From: Sandaracinus amylolyticus
GTDB lineage: Bacteria; Myxococcota_A; Polyangia; Polyangiales; Sandaracinaceae
Assembly: GCF_000737325.1 (NCBI RefSeq)
Contig: NZ_CP011125.1
Location: 4,340,001-4,404,000 of the forward strand
Direction: 5' to 3'
DNA length: 64,000 bases
The notes beneath the pieces are model-generated. The model was given only the letters and a program-made list of their open reading frames with translations, was not told the origin of the DNA and searched no databases. Shown here in pieces: positions 32,883 to 51,518 of the stretch; the stretch's first letter is position 1; every line of letters starts with the position of its first letter. The position numbers were made by a program, and so were the translations under genes.

Positions 32883-33662
32883 ATGGCAGAGCGCATCCGC
32901 TACGAGACGAAGAGCCACGTCGCCCGCATCGCCCTCGATCGCGCGAGCAAACGCAACGCGTTCGACCTGCTCATGCTGCGCGAGCTCGCCGAGGCGTACA
33001 CGACGTTCGAGGACGATCCCGACGCGCGCTGCGCGATCGTGCACGCGAACGGCGATCACTTCACCGCAGGCCTCGATCTCGCCGAGGTCGGTCCCGCCGT
33101 CGCGAGCGGCGCCGCGCTCTTCCCCGACGGCTGCGTCGATCCGCTCGGCCTCCGCGGCCGAGTGCGCACCAAGCCCGTCGTGATCGCGATCCAGGGCTAC
33201 TGCCTCACGATCGGCATCGAGCTCGCGCTCGCGTGCGACGTCGGCATCGCCGCGAGCGACGTGAAGTGCGGTCAGATCGAGATCAAGCGCGGCATCTTCC
33301 CGTTCGGCGGCGCGACGATTCGTCTCCCTGCGCGCGCCGGGTGGGGCAACGCGATGCGCTGGCTCCTGACCGGCGACACCTTCGACGCGAACGAAGCGCT
33401 CCGCCTCGGTCTCGTGCAGGAGGTCGTCGCGCCGGGACAGCAGACCGAGCGCGCGATCACGATCGCCGAGACCATCGCGAAGCAGGCGCCGCTCGGCGTG
33501 TACGCGACGCTCGAGAGCGCGCGCATCGCCGAGCACGAGGGCGAGCCCGCCGCGGCGCGCGCGCTGCTCGATCAGGCGCGCAAGCTGATGGCGACCGACG
33601 ACGCGCGCGAAGGGCTCATGTCCTTCGTCGAGCGGCGCGAAGGCCGCTTCACTGGCCGCTGA
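32883..33662 (+). CDS. Enoyl-CoA hydratase/isomerase family (crotonase) protein
   Basis: A 259-residue crotonase-fold protein. It shows LDRASKRNAFDLLMLRELAE, the oxyanion-hole motif HFTAGLDLAEV, GYCLTIGIELALACDVGIAA (second oxyanion segment) and IEIKRGIFPFGG. The usual catalytic Glu pair of hydratases is not clearly placed, so it may be an isomerase or act on another acyl-CoA substrate. No fatty-acid genes surround it. Its 3' end overlaps the convergent SDR gene by 14 bp. Confidence 0.9.
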   Translation: MAERIRYETKSHVARIALDRASKRNAFDLLMLRELAEAYTTFEDDPDARCAIVHANGDHFTAGLDLAEVGPAVASGAALFPDGCVDPLGLRGRVRTKPVVIAIQGYCLTIGIELALACDVGIAASDVKCGQIEIKRGIFPFGGATIRLPARAGWGNAMRWLLTGDTFDANEALRLGLVQEVVAPGQQTERAITIAETIAKQAPLGVYATLESARIAEHEGEPAAARALLDQARKLMATDDAREGLMSFVERREGRFTGR

Positions 33663-34611
33663 CCTTCGGCCAGTCGGGGTACACGGTCGCGAACATCCCG
33701 CCGTTCACCTCGGCGTAGACGGCCTCGCCGCACGGGCTCGCGGGGCCGTACTTCGACGCGAAGTGCGCGCCCCAGTCGGGGCGCGTGCCGTCGACGTCAC
33801 GCACGTCGTACTCGCGCGCGAGCGTCCACGACGCGTACACGCGGCCCGAGCGTGCCTTCACGCTCGGATCCGCCGCGAGCGCGGCGATGCAGCGCCCCAC
33901 GAACATCGGCGTCTCCGACACCGCGAAGTCCGGCTCCTTCGCGATCGCGTCGCGCCAGTTCGCCTCCGTCACCCCGAAATTCTCGAGCATCGCCTCGCTG
34001 CGCAGGAACCCCGGCGTCACCGCGACCGTCGCGATGCCGGTGCGACGCAGCTCGTACCCCATGCCCATCGCGAGCCGGACCACGCTCGTCTTCACCAGGT
34101 CGTAGACGAGGTTCCCGCGGTACGACAGCGAGTCTCCGTCGGTCACCTCGACGATCAGCCCGCGGCTCGCGCGCAGCATCAGCGGCGCGCCGTGCCGTGA
34201 CGTGATCACGTGCGACCACACCGCCTGCTCGATCAGCCCCGCGCTCTTCGCGAGGTCGAGCTCCCAGAACGCCTTGCCGAAGTCGATCTTCGCGTCGCCG
34301 CCCCACACGTCGTTCACGAGCACGTCGAGCCGCCCCGACTCGCGCTCCACGCGCTCGAAGAGCGCGCGCACCTCGTCCTCGCGCGTGTGATCGACCCGCA
34401 CCGCGATCCCGCGCCCGCCCGCTGCGGTCACGCGCTCCGCGGTCTCGTCGATCGTCTCGCTGCGCCCCGCCGTCGCGATCGCCCCGCGCACGCTGCGCCC
34501 CGTGCAGTAGACGGTCGCGCCGCGCTCGCCGAGCGCCACCGCGATCCCGCGCCCCGCGCCCCGCGTCGCGCCCGCGACCACCGCGATGCTTCCTTCGAGA
34601 TCCCGCTGCAT
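33649..34611 (-). CDS. Short-chain dehydrogenase/reductase (DHRS1-like)
   Basis: A 320-residue SDR oxidoreductase. The Rossmann start IAVVAGATRGAGRGIAVALG contains TGxxxGxG-like GATRGAGRG. VDHTREDEV and LDVLVNDVWGGD follow, with NDVWGG in place of the usual NNAG. The catalytic Tyr and Lys are in YRGNLVYDLVKTSVV. It is longer than classical 250-residue SDRs, with an extended C-terminus (DWGAHFASKYGPASPCGEAV), a layout like that of DHRS1-type proteins. NAD(P) preference and substrate cannot be told. It is convergent with the crotonase gene. Confidence 0.9.
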   Translation of the reverse strand: MQRDLEGSIAVVAGATRGAGRGIAVALGERGATVYCTGRSVRGAIATAGRSETIDETAERVTAAGGRGIAVRVDHTREDEVRALFERVERESGRLDVLVNDVWGGDAKIDFGKAFWELDLAKSAGLIEQAVWSHVITSRHGAPLMLRASRGLIVEVTDGDSLSYRGNLVYDLVKTSVVRLAMGMGYELRRTGIATVAVTPGFLRSEAMLENFGVTEANWRDAIAKEPDFAVSETPMFVGRCIAALAADPSVKARSGRVYASWTLAREYDVRDVDGTRPDWGAHFASKYGPASPCGEAVYAEVNGGMFATVYPDWPKVSGQ

Positions 34612-34937
34612 CGGCGTCCTCCTCGCGGGCCATGTTGCGCGTGCGCGTGACAGCGTGCCGTCAGCGAAGCGCTTCCGACGCGCCCGAAGTGCTTCCGACG
34701 CGCCCCGCCGGCCGATCCAGCCCGCGTCGGAACCTCCTGGAGCGCGTCGGAAGCTCCCGGAGCGCGTCGGAAGCTCCCGGAGCGCGTCGGAAGCTCTCGA
34801 AACACGTCATCGACGGCCCGCGGGGCGCGTCGGAAGCCTCCTGGCCGCGTCGCAACGTCCCGAGCCGGTTCCTTGCGTCGTCGCCGAAAACCCTGCTATG
34901 AGCGCCCGTCCGGGCCTGAACGCAGGTCCAGGAGCGC
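34612..34937. other. 326-bp gene-free interval upstream of parC
   Basis: No convincing gene is present. The interval contains the 20-bp repeat array (34666-34863) and, at its right end, a candidate Shine-Dalgarno (AGGAG) just before the parC start. Short reading frames here follow the repeat period rather than normal codon bias. Confidence 0.7.
34666..34863. repeat. 20-bp repeat array with inverted left end, upstream of parC
   Basis: Units at 34741-34760, 34761-34780 and 34781-34800 share the core GCGCGTCGGAAGCTC; the first two are identical and the third diverges in its last bases. Diverged direct units lie at 34721-34740, 34825-34844 and 34845-34863. At 34666-34685 and 34686-34705 two 20-bp units carry the core in reverse complement (GCTTCCGACGCGC). 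The array thus has about eight recognisable units, part inverted, ending 75 bp before the parC start. Confidence 0.9.
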
Positions 34938-51101: not shown

Positions 51102-51518
51102 ATGCGCGGGGAGTTACCACGCGCCCCGTGCACGCAGGACGAGAGGACTCACGCGCGCTCGCGCGCCCGGATCGCCGTCAGGATTCGGACGGAGCGGGCG
51201 CCGAGGCCCGGGATCTCATCTCGATTCGACGGAGAAGGCGTCGGAGCCCCGGATCGTTGTCACGATTCGAACGGAGAGGGCGTCGAGGCCCGAGATCTCA
51301 TCTCGTTTCGAACGGAGAAGGCGTCGGAGCCTCGGATCGTCATCTCGTTTCGAACGGAGAAGGCGTCGAGGGCCGAGATCTCGTCTCGATTCGAACGGAG
51401 AGGGCGTCGAGAGGCCGAGATCTCATCTCGACTCGAACGGAGAGGGCGCCGAGGCCCGAGATCTCATCTCGACTCGAGCGGAGAGGGCGCCGGAGCGCGA
51501 GCGCTCGTCTCGATGCGA
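51102..51518. other. 417-bp gene-free interval between hutU and the desaturase
   Basis: No gene is apparent. The interval holds the 41-42-bp tandem array (51190-51518). The first 88 bp are the hutU 5' flank and carry its promoter, which I cannot assign with confidence. Apparent reading frames follow the repeat and encode short Arg/Glu-rich periodic peptides. Confidence 0.75.
51190..51518. repeat. Eight-unit 41-42-bp tandem repeat array
   Basis: Units begin with CGGAG at 51190, 51230, 51272, 51313, 51355, 51396, 51438 and 51479, each 40-42 bp. The consensus opens CGGAGAGGGCGTCGAGGCC and continues CGAGATCTCATCTCGATTCG. Each central unit has an inverted repeat CGAGAT-nnn-ATCTCG. The array runs right up to the desaturase stop codon (51519-51521). 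Neighbouring units differ at several positions, so it is old rather than recently expanded. Confidence 0.92.

Follow-up and report, generated by a model that had tools for sequence, protein, structure and literature searches.

A dispersed array of helically phased sites upstream of parC in Sandaracinus amylolyticus is a candidate platform for an oligomeric DNA-binding protein

Introduction

In the chromosome of Sandaracinus amylolyticus, a series of short repeats in two orientations ends close to the start of parC, and this raises the question of whether the repeats serve the topoisomerase gene or belong to something larger. Dispersed bacterial repeats are usually viewed as selfish palindromes or transposon remnants that are alike along their full length. 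No published report of this particular repeat was found in literature searches, and its host belongs to a group of large-genome bacteria whose chromosome organisation has been little studied.

The stretch of DNA analysed (the window, 64 kb) comprises bases 4,340,001-4,404,000 of a single 10,327,335-bp contig. The genus comparison was made with three Sandaracinus genomes, namely the present one (G000), G315, which is the single close sister, and G316. Gene boundaries were set with a simple third-position-GC caller plus Pfam.

Results

Layout of the array

The core CGCGTCGGAAGC (approximately 12 bp) occurs eight times at window positions 34671-34857, between a short-chain dehydrogenase gene on the minus strand and parC on the plus strand (Table 1). 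The two inverted and six direct sites are laid out as I-20-I-33-D-20-D-20-D-20-D-43-D-20-D (I, inverted; D, direct; steps in bp). The sequence search gave the same counts as the preliminary description, which had reported two inverted and about six direct units, and the array does end about 75 bp before parC, as had been stated, if the gene starts at GTG 34938. The constant period described there holds at 20 bp inside the clusters only; the step is 33 bp at the orientation switch and 43 bp from the fourth to the fifth direct site.

The exact 11-mer GCGTCGGAAGC occurs six times in the window, always within 34671-34837 (minus strand, 34671 and 34691; plus strand, 34744, 34764, 34784 and 34827), against 0.29 occurrences expected by chance and two or fewer in each of 100 shuffles. 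A fifth direct unit at 34724, GCGTCGGAACC, has one mismatch to the 11-mer, and the sixth at 34847, GCGTCGCAACG, is degenerate. Pairs of GTCGGAA at exactly 20 bp were found four times in the window and not once in the shuffles, and Tandem Repeats Finder returned two arrays of period 20. A CRISPR array was rejected on the 12-bp cores, the semi-conserved 8-bp linkers, the unequal steps and the lack of any cas-like neighbour in Pfam scans of the adjacent genes.

Table 1. Features of the parC-proximal array and its surroundings, in window coordinates
Feature	Position	Strand	Basis or remark
Short-chain dehydrogenase gene	33649-34611	-	gene call and Pfam
Entire 193-bp element, one of six gap-free chromosomal copies	34673-34865	+	alignment, profile search
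Inverted core I1 (CGCGTCGGAAGC on minus)	34671-34682	-	sequence search, copy alignment
Inverted core I2, 20 bp from I1	34691-34702	-	sequence search, copy alignment
Orientation-switch spacer	34703-34722		33 bp between I2 and D1 7-mers; weak sequence conservation, length fixed in 6/6 copies
Direct core D1, one mismatch (GGAACC)	34723-34734	+	copy alignment
Direct core D2	34743-34754	+	copy alignment
Direct core D3	34763-34774	+	copy alignment
Direct core D4	34783-34794	+	copy alignment
31-bp spacer (43-bp step D4 to D5)	34795-34825		38% identity between copies, near background; length invariant
Direct core D5	34826-34837	+	copy alignment
Direct core D6	34846-34857	+	degenerate in the window copy (GCGTCGCAACG); intact in some other copies
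parC leader	34866-34937	+	nearly identical in the array-less sister species
parC (topoisomerase IV subunit A)	start 34938 (GTG) or later	+	gene call and Pfam

Six copies in the chromosome and the link to parC

A search of the whole 10.33-Mb chromosome found copies at 2.181, 3.848, 4.375 (the window copy), 5.585, 6.609 and 8.864 Mb, which align without a gap over 193 columns and have invariant spacing. With a sequence profile built from these six, no seventh full copy was detected in the chromosome; the sister species G315 has one full copy, whereas eight further family genomes have none. All six copies show the identical two-orientation layout, which makes a local event of duplications plus an inversion at parC, as had been suggested, unlikely.

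All six copies are intergenic, and their placement follows no particular gene direction: the window and 6.609-Mb copies lie between divergent genes, the 5.585- and 8.864-Mb copies in tandem context (the latter by our own gene calls), and the 2.181- and 3.848-Mb copies between the converging ends of genes, a position in which a promoter would not be expected. According to Pfam, the neighbours include an M23 peptidase, a cytochrome, MatE, a hydrolase, SDR, topoisomerase IV subunit A, VWA, PPIase, an acyltransferase and unknowns, and the products adjoining the six arrays have nothing in common except two M23 peptidases. Five of the six reading frames through the array happen to be open, yet a coding function was rejected because the 20- and 43-bp steps are not multiples of three and because the array also occurs between convergent genes. 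Relative to dnaA, five of the six copies lie in the opposite half of the chromosome. This weak lean is non-significant, and since the sampled GC skew was uninformative as well, replichore or ori/ter placement was set aside. The search for a plasmid or phage origin gave no match in plasmids or phages, with one pattern match in a viral contig.

At 1.167 Mb (L078, G000 C1 1166717-1166920), 41-42-bp units, most of them with GCGTCGGAAGC, lie between divergent genes; this array may be an expanded relative of the six-copy element.

The copies bear directly on the proposed link with the topoisomerase operon, in which the array would act as a supercoiling sensor or nucleoid-protein site controlling topoisomerase IV. 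Its position so near to parC, abutting a conserved leader, is what such a regulatory array would show. However, the five further copies adjoin unrelated genes, an outcome that the preliminary description had itself set against its proposal, and the relatives whose parC upstream DNA was read have no array there. In G315, which is collinear with this genome, the leader is nearly identical up to the array edge, and a quinone-oxidoreductase-like gene (our reading of the sequence) stands upstream of it in place of the array; the parC upstream DNA of G316 and G312 has no array either. A conserved function at parC is refuted by these data, and regulation specific to parC is the least probable of the explanations considered here. 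The adjacency is most likely incidental, and the array may have a secondary influence on parC expression in this strain.

Conservation of cores, linkers and spacing

Between the six copies, pairwise identity is 99% in the D1-D4 cores, which are intact or nearly intact in every existing copy, 85% in the inverted cores and 79% in the 8-bp linkers of the 20-bp units. It falls to 52% in the 33-bp gap, 38% in the 43-bp gap and 33-38% in the flanks. The gaps together with the linker between the inverted sites are 45% identical among copies against a shifted background of 31%, from which it follows that the copies share a common ancestry that is old: the spacers have decayed, the cores and distances have been kept, and the copies are therefore old homologues.

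The same contrast is found between species. G315 carries an ortholog of the 5.585-Mb copy flanked by the same genes, and the I1, I2 and D1-D4 cores of the two are unchanged at 64/64 bases, compared with 61/97 bases kept in linkers and gaps (Fisher P=6e-10); in D5 and D6 of this shared copy, decay has begun. At the sequence level, such core-only conservation amounts to a phylogenetic footprint of the sites. Placement on a single helical face would fit steps of 20, 33 and 43 bp, with a best common period of approximately 10.3 bp per turn. Cores kept over linkers and spacing fixed in helical phase are what a site array for a host DNA-binding protein should show. The earlier idea of a selected binding site is thereby supported at two levels, among copies and across species, by conservation confined to the cores and by spacing that does not change; the binding of a protein is its predicted part.

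These results also weigh on the origin of the array by neutral growth, in which a minisatellite would have expanded by slippage and then been copied. As slippage would produce, some adjacent linkers share one sequence (TCCCGGAG repeated), and this genome has many intergenic arrays, but the unequal steps and two orientations are reproduced exactly six times and conservation is confined to the cores, which makes this origin highly improbable.

A hairpin, in DNA or RNA, formed by an imperfect palindrome of the REP/BIME or ERIC kind was also considered. Inverted and direct cores can pair at 87-91% of core positions, and each linker holds a weak dyad, GCTCC.GGAGC. Nevertheless, co-variation is absent from the linkers that separate paired cores (53% paired, compared with 48% when copies are mixed), and no locus-specific pairing of linkers was seen among the six copies. 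The RNAalifold covariation term is unfavourable (+5.75) and there is no Rfam match at E<=1, and a structured RNA was rejected on these two results. REPs tagged with CGTC combine a palindromic unit (8-9 bp stem, 4-5 base loop) with an adjacent unpaired CGTC tag (PMC3733652). The present unit, CGCGTCGGAAGCTCCCGGAG, has no such stem and loop: its dyad does not exceed 5 bp and is centred on a single base. The Y1_Tnp/RAYT domain (PF01797) had no match in G000, G315 or G316, with positive controls; this absence bears on RAYT-driven REPs, because the CGTC-tagged REPs have no dedicated transposase (PMC3733652). Taken together, a hairpin element of this kind is very unlikely.

Gain and loss of copies in the sister species

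G315 keeps one of the six copies, the ortholog at 5.585 Mb. The 2.181- and 3.848-Mb loci can be aligned with G315 through both flanks, and in G315 the intergenic gap there holds unrelated repeats. At 6.609 Mb the G315 gap is approximately 270 bp shorter with the downstream leader intact, and constitutes a natural empty site; comparison of occupied and empty sites revealed no evident target-site duplication, the junctions being diverged. The 8.864-Mb region has no close counterpart in G315. The pattern of presence and absence at these loci indicates that copies have been gained or lost between close species. The age of the copies presents a puzzle, as the gaps differ more among copies (45% identity) than between species in the shared copy (57%), and yet four or five copies are missing from G315 and all are missing from the outgroups. 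Either the copies predate the species split and were lost elsewhere, or they entered from diverged sources.

Other repeats were seen at these sites. The place of the 2.181-Mb array is taken in G315 (C1 5380981-5381197, L189) by an inverted repeat, CACCGCAGAG...CTCTGCGGTG, which we take to resemble a dispersed repeat of many bacteria. The G315 counterpart of the 3.848-Mb site is occupied by a member of an intergenic repeat family of approximately 84-90 bp (GGAGTGCTCGTCCCG...) that is present in both species (G315 C1 3675609-3675939, L176; L266, L268 and L304 in G000).

Gain and loss of copies call to mind a non-autonomous, MITE-like mobile element whose outward-facing clusters would be transposase-binding ends and which would have spread by transposition in trans. 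This main rival explains why six copies with inverted outer sites are scattered between genes; it also accounts for presence and absence at collinear G315 loci including the shorter empty site at 6.61 Mb, and for outgroup genomes of the family that have no copy; compact head-to-head arrays in other Polyangiales also fit. On the other hand, the copies have no shared terminus, nothing is conserved outside the cores and the flanks stand at 33-38%, so that conserved terminal inverted repeats are lacking; at the 6.61-Mb indel, where the junctions have diverged, no target-site duplication is evident. The copies are not alike along their whole length (spacers 45%, cores 99%), and the core-only conservation of the shared copy counts against this reading because dead transposon copies should decay evenly. 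No element that carries a transposase between such clusters was seen, and plasmids and phages gave no match. A MITE-like origin is on the whole unlikely.

Related arrays in other genomes

Three arrays in Minicystis rosea share the Sandaracinus core, are built of a similar 20-bp unit and are followed by an inverted site; their steps are 19,20,20,21,20 in two of them and 19,20,20,20,21 in the third. Shorter arrays with this core occur in a Byssovorax MAG, a Myxococcales MAG and genome G186. In the same Byssovorax MAG, a related core is arranged head to head in a similar layout, with four sites followed by a 34-bp step and six sites at 20-23 bp. The arrays of Minicystis rosea and the Byssovorax MAG (steps 19-21, 23, 41, 34) also fit one helical face. 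Across 212 Polyangia genomes, the 20-bp CGGAAGC pair stays near its backward-pattern control except in a handful of genomes, and the family is therefore patchy. Loose R1 matches in G309/G310 were set aside, as they include coding-looking repeats or mere resemblance to the unit. In a Pyrinomonadaceae MAG (L089, 5164-5560), acidobacterial units of approximately 20 bp (GGTCAGATGCTTTCG / GGTAAGATGCTTCCGACGCT) contain the GCGTCGGAAGC 11-mer, a likeness that is probably convergent.

Intergenic arrays with periods of 41-43 bp

A census of 1.26 Mb, about 12% of this genome, showed periods of 41-43 bp in 14/35 intergenic tandem arrays and of 20-23 bp in six, with unrelated unit sequences. The 41-43-bp peak is also present in G315 (5/10) and Minicystis rosea (5/14). 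When the three genomes were pooled, 24/35 arrays of 30-54 bp period fell within 41-43 bp (P about 1e-14 under a flat expectation). A Rayleigh-type test exceeded all 2000 jittered sets in this genome only, with a best period of 22.0 and not sharply 20.7. Among coding arrays, almost every period is a multiple of three.

Examples of the period cluster are found at window positions 51182-51518 and at loci L252, L255, L261, L266, L272, L276, L282, L302, L304 and L309. Periods occur at 20-23 and 84-87 bp as well, and the three ranges correspond to about two, four and eight DNA turns. Orthologous 43-bp arrays at 3.893 Mb in G000 (L141) and 3.631 Mb in G315 (L142) have units built on GCGTTCGAAGC, and in a related array at 9.03 Mb (L154) TTGCAA stands in place of the TTCGAA of these units, a palindromic exchange.

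Discussion

On balance, the array is probably a dispersed, helically phased multi-site platform for a predicted oligomeric DNA-binding protein, a reading that we hold with modest confidence. Each element would present two outward-facing clusters of the core, one with two sites and the other, on the opposite strand, with four strong and two weaker ones, and spacing by multiples of approximately two DNA turns would bring all sites onto one helix face. A single sequence-specific protein could then occupy all sites at once and oligomerise along and across both clusters, and the resulting nucleoprotein platform may serve chromosome organisation or a similar genome-wide task. By analogy with ParR on plasmid centromeres, we favour an oligomer that would follow one face of the helix. 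The platform is preferred because RNA structure, RAYT-driven REPs and promoter control are unsupported, and because a MITE leaves core-only conservation in every copy unexplained. Promoter control by a transcription factor is inadequate, since copies lie between convergent genes. Among possible roles, chromosome organisation is preferred because placement ignores gene direction and promoters; as a specific assignment it is a minority possibility.

Some observations weigh against the platform. G315 retains only one of the six copies, which implies that most are dispensable over that distance and would be odd for an essential chromosome function. The decay of D5 and D6 in the shared copy and the non-significance of the dnaA lean also count against it.

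A broader proposal, which we put forward tentatively and consider rather unlikely, is that Sandaracinus and other Polyangia carry genome-wide intergenic arrays of many unrelated sequences at a pitch of approximately two turns (20-23, 41-43 and perhaps 84-87 bp). Within this class, the GCGTCGGAAGC elements would stand as the dispersed members of fixed layout, and an undescribed family of helix-phased DNA-binding proteins would read the arrays and organise the chromosome.

In contrast to the usual view of dispersed repeats, only the sites and the distances between them persist here, in two species and at places unrelated to promoters, and this is the pattern expected of a protein-DNA machine. 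With its natural core-only footprint, the 193-bp array is a ready bait for finding the protein.

Several known systems invite comparison. Like REP, BIME and REPIN sequences, the present repeats are short, intergenic and found in both orientations, and the core contains CGTC; unlike them, the array has no 8-9 bp stem, few copies, a fixed multi-site layout and no RAYT gene. In type II plasmid centromeres, the parC sites bound by ParR, short direct repeats are bound cooperatively and the DNA wraps the oligomer; the repeats are 20 bp in pSK41 and 11 bp in R1 (PMC9426499). An array of direct repeats of about 10-20 bp, as in these parMRC systems, is found here in the four 20-bp direct units plus two. 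The present element differs in its six chromosomal copies, two orientations and fixed 33- and 43-bp steps, and Pfam revealed no ParM- or ParR-like gene directly beside the arrays; the centromere site called parC has only its name in common with the topoisomerase gene.

The BrickBuilt and 464/PgRS MITEs of Porphyromonas gingivalis are scattered intergenic elements with 23-bp or 41-bp tandem direct repeats, and BrickBuilt has leader and tail segments, terminal inverted repeats and a variable repeat number (PMC4596501). The likeness to these MITEs lies in intergenic elements with direct repeats scattered through one genome; unlike BrickBuilt, the array has no conserved terminus, and it varies little in site number or layout. 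In titration clusters such as datA, sites for one protein are grouped between genes regardless of gene direction. Unlike datA, the present element has a core that is not a DnaA box and occurs in six copies of one layout, but it resembles such clusters in being intergenic and in a placement that ignores the direction of the neighbouring genes.
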